DNA of 64,000 bases from Granulibacter bethesdensis (GTDB lineage Bacteria > Pseudomonadota > Alphaproteobacteria > Acetobacterales > Acetobacteraceae): contig NZ_CP018192.1 in assembly GCF_001889525.1 (NCBI RefSeq), positions 496,001 through 560,000 of the forward strand. The letters run 5' to 3'. Shown piece by piece: positions 5,563-35,398 of the stretch (within the stretch, counting starts at the first letter, position 1; each line of letters opens with the position of its first letter). A model generated the notes under the pieces. The model saw nothing but the letters and a program-made list of their open reading frames with translations, had not been told where the DNA came from and ran no database searches. Both the position numbers and the translations under genes were made by a program.

Positions 5563-7034
5563 GACACCACCTGAGCGGCGATAGTGCGGGCGACCGAGAC
5601 ATCGTCGAAAGGATGCACCGTTTTGCCGATGGTCTGGCCCTGCTCATGCCCCTTGCCTGCAATGGCCAGCACATCCCCCGGCCGCAGGCTGCGGATGGCA
5701 TGGGCAATGGCTTCGGCCCGGTCGCCGATTTCCTCCGCATCGGGGCAGGCAGCGAGAACGGCAGCACGTATTTTCGCCGGATTTTCCGAGCGGGGGTTGT
5801 CGTCGGTCACGATCAGACGGTCGGCATGGGTGCGGGCCGCTTCACCCATCAGCGGTCTTTTGCCGGGATCGCGATCTCCGCCTGCCCCGAACACGACATG
5901 CAGCTTTCCGGTGGTATGCGGCCGCAACGCATCCAGCAGACGCTTCAGAGCATCGGGCGTATGGGCGTAATCGACATAGATCGCAGCCCCGTTGGGCAGG
6001 GTGGCGGCCTGTTCCATCCGTCCGCGCACGCCGGTCAGGCGCGACAGCAGAGGCACAATGCCACGTTTGCCGAGCGAGGCGGCAATCGTGGCGGCGGTGA
6101 TGATATTGTCCGCCTGAAAACGGCCTGGCAAAGGGACATTGATGCGGTGTGTGGTGCCCTCTTCCCGGATGGTCAGATACTGCCCGCCAGCATGCGGCTC
6201 GATCGCCAGCAGCGGCAGCGGAGAGTCTGGCGAACCCGCGATGATCAGCCTCAACCCACGCCGTCTCGCAATGCCGCGCAGCGCCTCCAGCGTGACCTGA
6301 TCGAGCGTGGGGGAGGCAATGGCAGGTGCGCCAGCGGGCAGCAGATCGGCGAACAGTCGCAGCTTGGCGGTACGGTAGGCGCCTTCGGTCCCGTGATAAT
6401 CCAGATGATCGCGGGTGAGGTTCGTGAAAGCAGCAGCTGATAACCTGACGCCATCCAGCCGGAACTGGTCCAGACCGTGAGACGATGCTTCCAGCGCGGC
6501 ATGCTGAATCCCGGCCCGTGCCAGCATGGCCAGAGTTTGGGCCAGTGTCACCGGATCAGGCGTGGTCAGGCTGTCCTGCGGGGGAAAGCCTTCCGCGATC
6601 AGGCCGAGTGTGCCGAGGCTGGCAGCAGAACGACCCAGCATAGTCCAGATCTGCCGCAGAAAATCCGCCGTACTGGTTTTCCCGTTGGTGCCGGTGATGG
6701 CCGCGATAGTGTGGGGCTGTGCTCCGGCCAGCCGTGCCGCCATCAAGGCCAGCAATCGGCGCGGTTCAGCATCCTGAATCATCGGGCGGGGCGGAACGCC
6801 GGGCGGCCAGGCAGTGCCGGCGGGCGCCAGAATGGCGGCCGCGCCACGCTCCACCGCATCGGCGATAAAGCGTCTTCCATCCGTTTTCTGGCCGGGCAGA
6901 GCGGCAAAGACCCAGCCGGGCATAACCTGACGGCTGTCGGCCGTAATCCCGCTGACATGAACGCCAGCCATGCCGGTCAGGCTCGTGACCGGGGCGGCGG
7001 AGGTATCTGCCAGGAGATTACTCAGCATCATCAT
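5559..7034 (-). CDS. murE: MurE, UDP-MurNAc-L-Ala-D-Glu:meso-diaminopimelate ligase
   Basis: MurE adds the third stem-peptide residue. The P-loop TGTNGKTS is at about residues 114-121. The DNPRSEN motif near residues 412-418 is the signature of ligases that use meso-diaminopimelate rather than lysine, as expected for a Gram-negative wall. The reading frame stays open 51 codons upstream, but that stretch lies inside ftsI and looks unlike MurE. I chose the first of three consecutive ATG codons at 7026-7034, giving 491 residues and a 17-base overlap with the ftsI end. Any of the three ATGs could be used. Confidence 0.95.
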   Translation of the reverse strand: MMMLSNLLADTSAAPVTSLTGMAGVHVSGITADSRQVMPGWVFAALPGQKTDGRRFIADAVERGAAAILAPAGTAWPPGVPPRPMIQDAEPRRLLALMAARLAGAQPHTIAAITGTNGKTSTADFLRQIWTMLGRSAASLGTLGLIAEGFPPQDSLTTPDPVTLAQTLAMLARAGIQHAALEASSHGLDQFRLDGVRLSAAAFTNLTRDHLDYHGTEGAYRTAKLRLFADLLPAGAPAIASPTLDQVTLEALRGIARRRGLRLIIAGSPDSPLPLLAIEPHAGGQYLTIREEGTTHRINVPLPGRFQADNIITAATIAASLGKRGIVPLLSRLTGVRGRMEQAATLPNGAAIYVDYAHTPDALKRLLDALRPHTTGKLHVVFGAGGDRDPGKRPLMGEAARTHADRLIVTDDNPRSENPAKIRAAVLAACPDAEEIGDRAEAIAHAIRSLRPGDVLAIAGKGHEQGQTIGKTVHPFDDVSVARTIAAQVVS

Positions 7035-32288: not shown

Positions 32289-32837
32289 ATGAGAATCGTC
32301 GCCGGGCAATGGCGAGGCCGTGCGTTGATTGCCCCTCCCGGACAGGCAACCCGCCCGACGGCGGACCGGGTTCGGCAGGCTTTGTTCGATATGCTGCTCC
32401 ATGCACCATGGGGTGGACGTGGCCTGCTTGATGGCGCCACTGTGCTGGATGGATTTGCCGGTACCGGTGCGCTGGGGCTGGAGGCTTTGTCACGCGGCGC
32501 CAAGGAGGCTGTGCTGATTGAGCGCGATCCTGTGGCGCTCCAAGCCTTGCGGACCAACGTCACCGCGCTGGGGGCAGGGGAGCGGGCAAGAGTGCTGGCG
32601 GCTGATATGCTGGTTCCTCCTTTGGCGTCTTTCGCATGCAACCTTGTTTTTCTTGATCCGCCCTATCGTCAGGATCTGGTGCCGAAGGCGCTTGCGGCCT
32701 TGAAATCACGGGGCTGGATTGCTCCGGATGCCCTGATCGTTGCTGAATATGCGCGTGATGAGTTCCTTCCAGCTATGACAACATTGGCTGAAAGGGAGCA
32801 AGGTGCGGCCCGCATCGTGATCTGGCGGTCTGTCTGA
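32289..32837 (+). CDS. rsmD: RsmD, 16S rRNA G966 N2-methyltransferase
   Basis: The 182-residue protein starts MRIVAGQWRGRALIAPPG, the normal RsmD opening. It has RPTADRVRQALFDML, the SAM loop LDGFAGTGALGLEALSRGA and the catalytic FLDPPY. RsmD methylates G966 of 16S rRNA near the decoding region. It ends the plus-strand group of three genes; downstream the base composition changes sharply to AT-rich. Confidence 0.94.
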   Translation: MRIVAGQWRGRALIAPPGQATRPTADRVRQALFDMLLHAPWGGRGLLDGATVLDGFAGTGALGLEALSRGAKEAVLIERDPVALQALRTNVTALGAGERARVLAADMLVPPLASFACNLVFLDPPYRQDLVPKALAALKSRGWIAPDALIVAEYARDEFLPAMTTLAEREQGAARIVIWRSV

Positions 32838-33095
32838 AGTAGCATTCCAGCCGACCGGCATTCAGCCCGTTGACCGGCCAAATGGCTGGCTTATATGAAT
32901 ATTTTCAATGCCGCTTATGGCTCTGTTGCGGAGGAGTGGGGCGATATTTGAAGAGCAATCCCGTCAACTGGGGCTGCATGGCATTTTCTTAAATAAAAGC
33001 AAATTTTTATGTTGTATGGATTCGGTAAGAATGTGTTTTGATGCTGGAGATTGATTTTTCGCGTGTATTCGACAACTGAGCGTGGAAGATATGAA

Positions 33096-33257
33096 ATGAA
33101 AGATGATGCTGGCCAGCCCAAAGCTTCTGACGTGCAGGAGCAGAATGAAAAAAACCTGAACCAGGTTCAGGAAGGTATTGCTGATAAAATGCTGGAAGAG
33201 GTCAATGGTGGGGGAGGCAATTCCCGATTCCTTCCACTTGAAATACAACCATTATAA
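33096..33257 (+). CDS. Putative double-glycine leader peptide 1 (bacteriocin/RiPP-like precursor)
   Basis: The 53-residue product starts MKDDAGQPKASDVQEQNEKN and has the motif IADKMLEEVNGG at residues 28-39, the pattern of leaders cut after Gly-Gly by C39-peptidase ABC exporters. Leader-like Leu33, Val36 and the two Gly stand at the usual -7, -4, -2 and -1 positions. The remaining core would be only about 14 residues (GGNSRFLPLEIQPL). GGAAG lies seven bases before the ATG. The surrounding DNA is AT-rich. The product is too short for a confident call, but a second gene 340 bases away encodes the same motif. No exporter or modifying enzyme is adjacent. Confidence 0.6.
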   Translation: MKDDAGQPKASDVQEQNEKNLNQVQEGIADKMLEEVNGGGGNSRFLPLEIQPL

Positions 33258-33599
33258 TCTGCTTTTATCCGGGAACTGGCATGTATCGATGGGATCGCTG
33301 CTTCATTTCAGTCAGCGCTCCACTAAACTATACACAGTTGATGCTATTGTTTTGATGGCATCAGCATCCCCAGTAAACTTTATACTGCATGCATGTATAA
33401 GAACAGATACAATATAGCGACAAGATAATTCAGTCTATCACTATTTTTATCATGTGAAAACTGCTTAAAATATAGAAATTTAGTTCCGAGTCCACACGTG
33501 CAGTTCTGCGTTTATTACAGGACATAGCATTAAAATTGACATTTTAATCCAAAATTGACTTTGGATTGCCGCAATTATGCGTAAAACTGGATATCAATT
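33258..33599. other. AT-rich gap between two convergent small peptide genes
   Basis: No gene is supported here. The right part contains the paired inverted repeats at 33529-33567. Several short frames on both strands lack a ribosome binding site and any leader motif. Confidence 0.5.
33529..33567. repeat. Two overlapping inverted repeats
   Basis: ATTAAAAT/ATTTTAAT (33529-33536 and 33541-33548) and AATCCAAA/TTTGGATT (33546-33553 and 33560-33567) are both perfect 8-bp arms. Both loops contain TGAC, and the repeats share three bases. They lie about 30 bases beyond the 3' end of the minus-strand peptide gene and could end its transcript. Confidence 0.6.
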
Positions 33600-33767
33600 T
33601 TATGATTTTACTAACATGCCCACAGATGTGATTGGATAACGACGGCGCGGCTTCTGGGGTGATGCATTCTGGGTTGAAGGCGCGGCTTCTGCATTTCGGG
33701 CGCCACCACACACTTCTTCCAGCTGCTGGTCAGAAATTTTTTCGTTCTGGTCTAGTTTTTCGGTCAT
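33600..33767 (-). CDS. Putative double-glycine leader peptide 2 (bacteriocin/RiPP-like precursor)
   Basis: The 55-residue product starts MTEKLDQNEKISDQQLEEV and continues CGG, so residues 11-22 match I-S-D-x-x-L-E-E-V-x-G-G, shared with the peptide encoded at 33096. After the Gly21-Gly22 site the core is 33 residues, with a proline-rich basic patch (PQKPRRRYP, 37-45) and a hydrophobic end. The single Cys sits at position 20, inside the leader. The ATG at 33767 has GGAAG eight bases upstream; another ATG five codons earlier overlaps that site. It lies 146 bases downstream of the glycosyltransferase-like gene on the same strand and might be co-transcribed. Confidence 0.62.
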   Translation of the reverse strand: MTEKLDQNEKISDQQLEEVCGGARNAEAAPSTQNASPQKPRRRYPITSVGMLVKS

Positions 33768-33913
33768 GTTTTCTACTTCCATATATAATGAGCAAATTGA
33801 AACTCACTTGCCCTTTAGTTAATTTTTCGATCTAGGGTACCAAAATGCAAGTGAATTTTATTTAAAACGTTTGAGCAGCATTATTTAGGGGGGCTGGGCG
33901 ATCTTTGATAAGA

Positions 33914-35398
33914 TCAACCCTTATGATCCGGCCCTGCTGGTCGTGGAACCATGATTTCCCAGTGCTTCTGGCCCAGATCAAGAGGCATATAAATCTGTTC
34001 GATGAGTGATGGCAGTGGGCTGCTGATTTCTCCGGCTTTGGTTGAGTGTTTGGATTGCTCCAGAAGGATGGCGCTGAACTTTCTGCTCCGGAGTGCTTCT
34101 TGTAAAAGATGATTATCCCCGGATAGGGCGACGTGCTGCCCATACAGGAAAAAATCGAGGACGAAATCCTTACCCGCCCAGAAGCATAGAGCGGGCATTT
34201 CACAGGCGACAGGCCCGGGCATCGCCGCGATCCGGGTTTCCATGAAACGCCAGGCATGCAGATCGTTAGCGAGATGGCGTCGTTCGCTGATGATTTTTGG
34301 AATGGCAACCAGTCCGACGATCAATAATGGCGCGGCGATAAGCACGCGCATGCGCCACGGATTGTCTGTCGGAATGGGGGCCGTGCCAGAAACGGCAACG
34401 GACAGGCAGAGCGCAATCACGGCCTCGATATGGGCATTCACATCCACGCCTTGCCCGCTGCGCTGAAAAATGCCGAGTGGCAGGGCGATCAGGGCGAAAA
34501 TCATGATCAGATCGAGCCGATCATCTTGCCACCGCATCTGCAATAGTGGCCGGGAGGCAATGGCCATAGGCAGTAGCACCAGCAGAGGCACGATGGATTT
34601 ATCGGCCATGCGAAGGATGGAGAGATGCCGTTTGGCGTCGGCAATGTCGCGCATCATATCCGGCCCGTACATCATCAGACAGAGTGCGGCCCCCCCTGCC
34701 AGGCCGACCAGTGCGGTGATGCACCAGATACGCCATGCACGGCGGTGATACAGCAGCAGCCATATCCCTACTGCGAGCGGTGCGGCCAGCAGATTATGCT
34801 TGATCATCCCGCCTCCCAGCAGCAGCAGTGCAGAGCCGACAGAGCAAGCCGCCGAGGGTGATTCTCCGGCCTGTTTTGGCAGGATCAGGGCCATCCCGGC
34901 CATCATGACTGCATCCGCCATCCATTGCGGGTCATCCAGCCCGACATAGCGTCGCAGCAGGGTGGCATTGAGCGCCATGAACAACAGCCCACCCAGCCAT
35001 GGTGCATAAACAGCCGGAGATGCAGCTCTGATCACCAACCGCCTGATCATCCAGACGATGATCCCGCCTACGGTAAGCATCGACAGCAGCGCCAGCAGTC
35101 GCCCGGCAAGAATAGGGTCACCGGTCAGTTTTGCAGTCCAGCCAACGATATAAAACGAGAGTGGTGGATAGTTGTTGCCGGTCAGCCCATCCAGAGGCGG
35201 GTACAAAGCCTGTCCGGACAAAATCTGCCGGGTCTGAAACGCATTCCATCCCTCATTGGGATCGCGTGAGAGATGATCCCCCAGACTCAGTACCCGTTCC
35301 GCAATCAGACCGAATGACAGCAGCCCAAGCAGCCATAAAAGCACATGGCAGGCGCGTCCCCACCATGATGATGGGCGTGAGGTAAGGGATTGGTCCAT
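33914..35398 (-). CDS. Multi-pass membrane glycosyltransferase-like protein (GT39/ArnT superfamily)
   Basis: The 494-residue protein has about ten hydrophobic helices. An early periplasmic loop reads LGDHLSRDPNEGWNAFQTRQ (about residues 39-58), where the acidic DPNEG resembles the metal/substrate site of GT-C enzymes of the PMT/ArnT type. GNNYPPLSFYIVG follows, as in this superfamily. A soluble C-terminal domain runs from about residue 390. Such enzymes move sugars from polyprenyl phosphate to lipids or proteins outside the inner membrane; the acceptor here is unknown. The chosen ATG lies four bases after the mutL stop. Confidence 0.72.
   Translation of the reverse strand: MDQSLTSRPSSWWGRACHVLLWLLGLLSFGLIAERVLSLGDHLSRDPNEGWNAFQTRQILSGQALYPPLDGLTGNNYPPLSFYIVGWTAKLTGDPILAGRLLALLSMLTVGGIIVWMIRRLVIRAASPAVYAPWLGGLLFMALNATLLRRYVGLDDPQWMADAVMMAGMALILPKQAGESPSAACSVGSALLLLGGGMIKHNLLAAPLAVGIWLLLYHRRAWRIWCITALVGLAGGAALCLMMYGPDMMRDIADAKRHLSILRMADKSIVPLLVLLPMAIASRPLLQMRWQDDRLDLIMIFALIALPLGIFQRSGQGVDVNAHIEAVIALCLSVAVSGTAPIPTDNPWRMRVLIAAPLLIVGLVAIPKIISERRHLANDLHAWRFMETRIAAMPGPVACEMPALCFWAGKDFVLDFFLYGQHVALSGDNHLLQEALRSRKFSAILLEQSKHSTKAGEISSPLPSLIEQIYMPLDLGQKHWEIMVPRPAGPDHKG

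Follow-up and report, generated by a model that had tools for sequence, protein, structure and literature searches.

Two small double-glycine leader genes of Granulibacter bethesdensis as candidate substrates of a distant NHLM-type exporter

Two very small genes of Granulibacter bethesdensis, referred to here as A and B, probably encode peptide precursors with short double-glycine leaders, which would be exported and cleaved in trans by an unlinked NHLM-type system. They are located in a stretch of 64,000 nucleotides (the window), and in the genome that contains it (2,690,741 bases in one contig) the C39 peptidase family is matched just once (PF03412, E 1e-38), about 1.17 Mb away from A and B along the contig. 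Because the export tag of A and B matches that of two small genes, p3 and p4, found beside this exporter, A and B most likely encode peptides that it trims and releases. The initial annotation, made from the letters of the window, had proposed that the processing exporter would be encoded elsewhere and that further leader-bearing genes were to be expected in the genome; since both exist, its interpretation is supported in the main line.

Results

Gene A (33096..33257 on the forward strand, 53 aa) and gene B (33600..33767 on the reverse strand, 55 aa) are convergent. Each ATG is preceded by GGAAG, a likely ribosome-binding site, located 7 nt upstream in A (33084..33088, forward strand) and 8 nt upstream in B (33776..33780, reverse strand). 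An in-frame ATG further upstream of B, at 33782, would extend its product to 60 aa, and we prefer the 55-aa start because the position of GGAAG fits it. In both products the leader is closed by I-x-D-x-x-L-E-E-V-x-G-G, with I, L and V at positions -12, -7 and -4. The leader of A (33096..33212, forward strand) comprises 39 residues and ends in GIADKMLEEVNGG, and that of B (33702..33767, reverse strand) comprises 22 residues and ends in KISDQQLEEVCGG. Cleavage after the glycine pair, which we infer, would release a core of 14 aa with net charge 0 from A (33213..33254, forward strand) and a core of 33 aa with net charge +5 and a proline/arginine patch from B (33603..33701, reverse strand). The frames, the product sizes, the core lengths and the ribosome sites agree with the initial annotation, as does the AT-rich island that it described: the GC content is 0.45 in A, 0.49 in B and 0.37 in the spacer between them, i.e. 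37-49% against 58-62% in the flanking genes (0.62 and 0.58). A QNEK reported there as shared is indeed common to both products, but its distance from the motif differs between them, and a better register of the leaders aligns LNQVQEGI of A with LNQNNEAI of p4 and LDQNEKI of B.

Another forward frame of 79 codons (33178-33417) overlaps the GG region of A and is open beyond the stop codon of A. It could reflect an old frame change in A, whose 14-residue core may be decayed. Three terminator-like sites were found against 1.1 expected, two of them overlapping inside the frame of A on the opposite strand, the third a short way upstream of B. Comparison of positions 32500-34300 with Rfam gave two matches, both below the gathering scores (E 0.017 and 0.24). 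A promoter scan performed at the level of chance, with one site found against 2.9 expected, which counts against A and B being expressed precursors.

The degenerate pattern YTNGARGANVTNNNNGGNGG has two matches in the window, both in A and B, against a mean of 0.05 in shuffled sequences, where at least two matches occurred in 0/100 shuffles. Genome-wide it has three matches, the third of which opens on a Phe codon and does not represent the motif. The local alignment scores of A with B (53), of A with p4 (60) and of B with p4 (59) were each reached in 0/5000 shuffles; the comparisons with p3 are weaker, the score being reached in 257/5000 shuffles for A and in 40/5000 for B. At the DNA level, B and p4 have a 24-base start in common (0/1000 shuffles), and the likeness of A to B and of A to p4 is weaker (14/1000 and 33/1000 shuffles, respectively). 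The four leaders align with M, L, Q, E, I, L and E conserved throughout, and A, B and p4 further have in common I at -12, L at -7 and V at -4 ahead of the glycine pair. A profile made from all four leaders finds all four in their own genome, as expected from its training set. On the other hand, profile A5 was built solely from the exporter-linked leaders of two genomes and is independent of A and B. Run on the genome that contains the window, it ranks first the two genes on which it was trained, followed by B (E 5.1e-4) and, in fourth place, A (E 0.16), with no other match at E<=10. The weak match of A to this independent profile speaks against our reading; the third and fourth matches are, though, separated by only about 0.6 kb of a 2.69 Mb genome, which gives them weight beyond their E-values.

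It could be argued that A and B are merely two non-coding ORFs that came to share a motif. They flank an AT-rich spacer, the whole of B has no match in phages or plasmids and none in viral contigs, where four stretches fit a pattern and 0 were relatives, and A has no match in plasmids. A fortuitous origin is nevertheless strongly disfavoured and, in our estimation, very improbable, given that none of the 5000 shuffles reproduced any of the A-p4, B-p4 and A-B scores and that the genome's two leader matches outside the exporter locus are precisely A and B.

The C39 peptidase match is part of an adjacent three-gene NHLM/NHLP block (G000:C1, about 1696120-1702554, G000 being the genome that contains the window). 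It resembles known exporters of this type in that all three genes lie side by side in one genome and score over their cut-offs: a HlyD-like protein (TIGR03794, 203.7 against 156.2 bits), the C39 ABC transporter (TIGR03796, 987.2 against 853.3 bits) and a second ABC protein (TIGR03797, 893.2 against 709.4 bits). Directly upstream of the exporter, p3 (54 aa; L002:7452-7616) and p4 (85 aa) carry matching 24-residue leaders. At the expected cleavage site p3 has no GG, and its counterpart in another genome of the genus (G002, L038), nearly identical in sequence apart from this difference, has GG before the core; the change in p3 may mark decay or a different role. The core of p4 has a net charge of +5, and as the cores of A, B and p4 contain no Cys, thioether rings of the lanthipeptide type are not expected. 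No match of p4 was found in plasmids, and 321 stretches retrieved with it from genome contigs, a set in which near records may be left out, included 0 relatives. No maturation gene was recognised by eye among the ORFs beside A and B or beside p3 and p4, nor was an immunity gene recognised; one ORF near the exporter has no Pfam match.

The exporter island is located between tRNA-Ser(GGA) (L002:6113-6202), beside which stands a gene that we take to be lepA, and a gene on the other flank that is presumably uracil-DNA-glycosylase-like. In its place the third genome of the genus (G001) carries a different stretch of about 1.3 kb, which includes a SocA/Panacea-domain gene, and in G002 the exporter block is set apart from the lepA/tRNA stretch by about 17.6 kb of extra DNA. 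The exporter locus is accessory, and the site adjoining tRNA-Ser(GGA) is likely a hotspot for accessory DNA.

Among the three same-genus genomes, the C39 gene is present in G000 and G002 and is lacking from G001. The leaders number four in G000, two in G002 (the exporter-linked pair only) and zero in G001, i.e. leader and exporter occur together in two of the three genomes and neither occurs in the remaining one. A and B are found in one of the three, namely their own, which is a further point against our reading. Conservation in related strains, the lack of which the initial annotation would have taken as a refutation, holds for the leader family, recovered in G002, but not for A and B themselves, which are absent from both relatives. 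They are situated in an AT-rich segment particular to their own genome (32834..33934), delimited by the points where BLAST homology breaks off: about 32833 on the left and, on the right, about 33935 in G002, from which the right bound was taken, or about 33977 in G001. This break with both genomes indicates that the segment differs from either relative. The genes that flank it are presumably rsmD-like and membrane glycosyltransferase-like. At the same site G001 and G002 hold a gene with a tRNA-binding domain (L036:723-1073; L035:796-1161), which encodes 116 aa from its ATG in G002 and has a matching frame in G001; the G002 protein matches PF01588 (E 2.3e-15), and no convincing copy of this gene was found elsewhere in the genome that contains the window (best E 0.06).

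The absence of A and B from both relatives would also fit a different history, in which they are members of the leader family in the course of decay, their leaders surviving and their cores truncated or drifted, so that nothing functional is exported. The 14-residue core of A points the same way, as do the overlapping frame that remains open past its stop, in keeping with an old frame change, and the missing GG of exporter-linked p3 in a genome whose relative has kept it. We regard such decay as rather unlikely, considering that start, ribosome site, leader and GG are intact in both genes and that the core of B comprises 33 residues, and we retain export in trans as the preferred explanation.

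Profile A2, which includes A and B, was used to search three overlapping samples of genomes. Among 60 relatives it gave matches at E<=1 in nine, strong in the genome of origin and in G002 only, with E-values from 0.18 to 0.93 in the other seven; among 299 genomes of the family, two had matches at E<=0.01; and among 398 genomes of the phylum, the one match was the genome of origin. Beyond the genus, these samples gave no strong leader match, which also weighs against export in trans.

TIGR03796 is matched over its cut-off in 9/200 genomes of the family. The C39 transporter (L002:9464-11668) is 97.7% identical to that of G002 (L038), against 38-43% identity to those of nine exporter loci from eight other genomes of the family (L051-L059; seven over the TIGR03796 cut-off, one just under). 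To the best 80 of 119 public loci, a set that may omit near records and that by titles comes mostly from other phyla, the identity is 39-45%. The drop from 97.7% to 38-43% within the family hints that the exporter may have been acquired from outside it.

Small ORFs with the strict box are present in 20/80 loci around exporter relatives (35 ORFs), against 0/80 for a control that consisted of shuffled versions of the same ORFs only, not of unrelated loci. It counts against our reading that the strict box is found in neither the remaining 60/80 loci nor 8/9 of the stretches from other genomes of the family, the one exception being L055. With a looser pattern, which also picks up plain noise, L053 and L054 each yield a plausible longer leader as well. 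In 4/35 of the strict-box ORFs all upstream Met codons are at most 45 residues from GG, which suggests that long leaders predominate. We have also observed small ORFs with other leaders, ending in LDQVSGG or LDDVSGG, in the same-family genomes with an NHLM-type exporter represented by L053, L054 and L055. A short leader that ends in the GG box, encoded beside an NHLM-type exporter relative, occurs in L091 (Bryobacterales), L126 (Selenomonadaceae) and L055 (same family), and the leaders of L091 and L126 likewise contain N-E-K; with profile scores at the level of noise (E 29-46; L055 not listed) this is a likeness of type, not proven homology. In L126, short GG-leader ORFs near 6095 and 6273 are followed by very arginine-rich cores.

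Discussion

In exporter-linked precursors, a passage of PMC2887384 describes a 'motif 2' before GG, ELSDEELEAVAGG in the Nif11-related and ELSDEQLDAVAGG in the nitrile-hydratase-related families. A, B and p4 combine a box like that of these two families with a short leader. Precursors encoded far from their modification and export genes are given there as a feature of such systems (Haft, Basu and Mitchell 2010, PMC2887384), and in this respect, too, A and B resemble NHLM/NHLP systems. They differ from them in that the leaders of A, B, p3 and p4 are short (22-39 aa) and no modification enzyme was recognised; neither TIGR03793 (NHLP) nor TIGR03798 (Nif11-type), the precursor models, matches any of the four at E<=1. 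The same text gives ELSEKELAQIIGG as the consensus of classical bacteriocin leaders, which measure about 23 residues (PMC2887384). With the class II bacteriocin leaders of TIGR01847 our genes have in common the box and the GG, and the leaders of B and p4 also agree in length (about 23 aa), but the exporter here has a HlyD-like partner, and the cut-off of 15.7 bits is not reached (A 12.1; no match listed for B, p3 and p4). The CTB family bacteriocin model NF038167 gives weak matches that include the leader, at 14 bits for B and 15.8 bits for p4, against a cut-off of 32 bits. That neither A nor B reaches the cut-off of a curated family is to be counted against our reading. Both follow the rule given for leaders of C39 substrates in passages of PMC3140520 and PMC6363468, being short, hydrophobic at -12, -7 and -4 and terminated by GG, where the rule allows GG, GA or GS; the Glu at -8 that it also includes is lacking from both.

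If A and B are translated, the leader box with I, L and V before GG would be bound by the C39 domain of the TIGR03796 transporter, which would cut after GG; the shared leader and its co-occurrence with the exporter are consistent with this step. Acting with its two partners, the HlyD-like and the second ABC protein, the transporter would then export the core, judging from the families to which the three belong. The released cores might act extracellularly, and our guess is that they would be antagonistic, in the manner of bacteriocins or microcins, rather than signals. Pheromone-like signals are a possibility that we doubt. The cores of B and p4 are cationic (net +5 each), and the genes adjoining A and B, by eye, have a look that we take to be housekeeping, both of which argue against signalling. 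The lack of a recognised immunity gene would suit a signal, and double-glycine exporters also carry quorum-signal peptides, according to a passage of PMC6363468. That lack, like the very short core of A, also bears against the preferred reading of A and B as exported precursors.

A more far-reaching idea, to which we assign a low probability, is that across the genus a single promiscuous NHLM exporter serves leader cassettes that turn over, the exported repertoire being renewed as leader-tagged cores are gained elsewhere in the chromosome, and that p3 possibly acts as an uncleavable competitor or regulator. It is suggested by the finding that p3 has no cleavage site in the same genome in which A and B occupy a segment absent from the relatives.

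Conclusions

The kind of precursor and its unlinked arrangement are already described, in a passage of Haft et al. 2010 (PMC2887384); A and B are new members. Our literature search found nothing that combines double-glycine peptides with Acetobacteraceae, and among the papers on Granulibacter bethesdensis and bacteriocin none is, by title, about such peptides; the genome paper of a relative, Gluconacetobacter diazotrophicus, mentions bacteriocins in its abstract (PMC2765452). Such small genes are easily missed: a passage of a cyanobacterial survey counts 46 precursors that were missing from annotation (PMC3140520). Here, genome-wide leader matching has recovered candidate precursors more than 1 Mb away from the exporter, and two very small ORFs of G. 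bethesdensis have thereby become testable candidate substrates of a named exporter.
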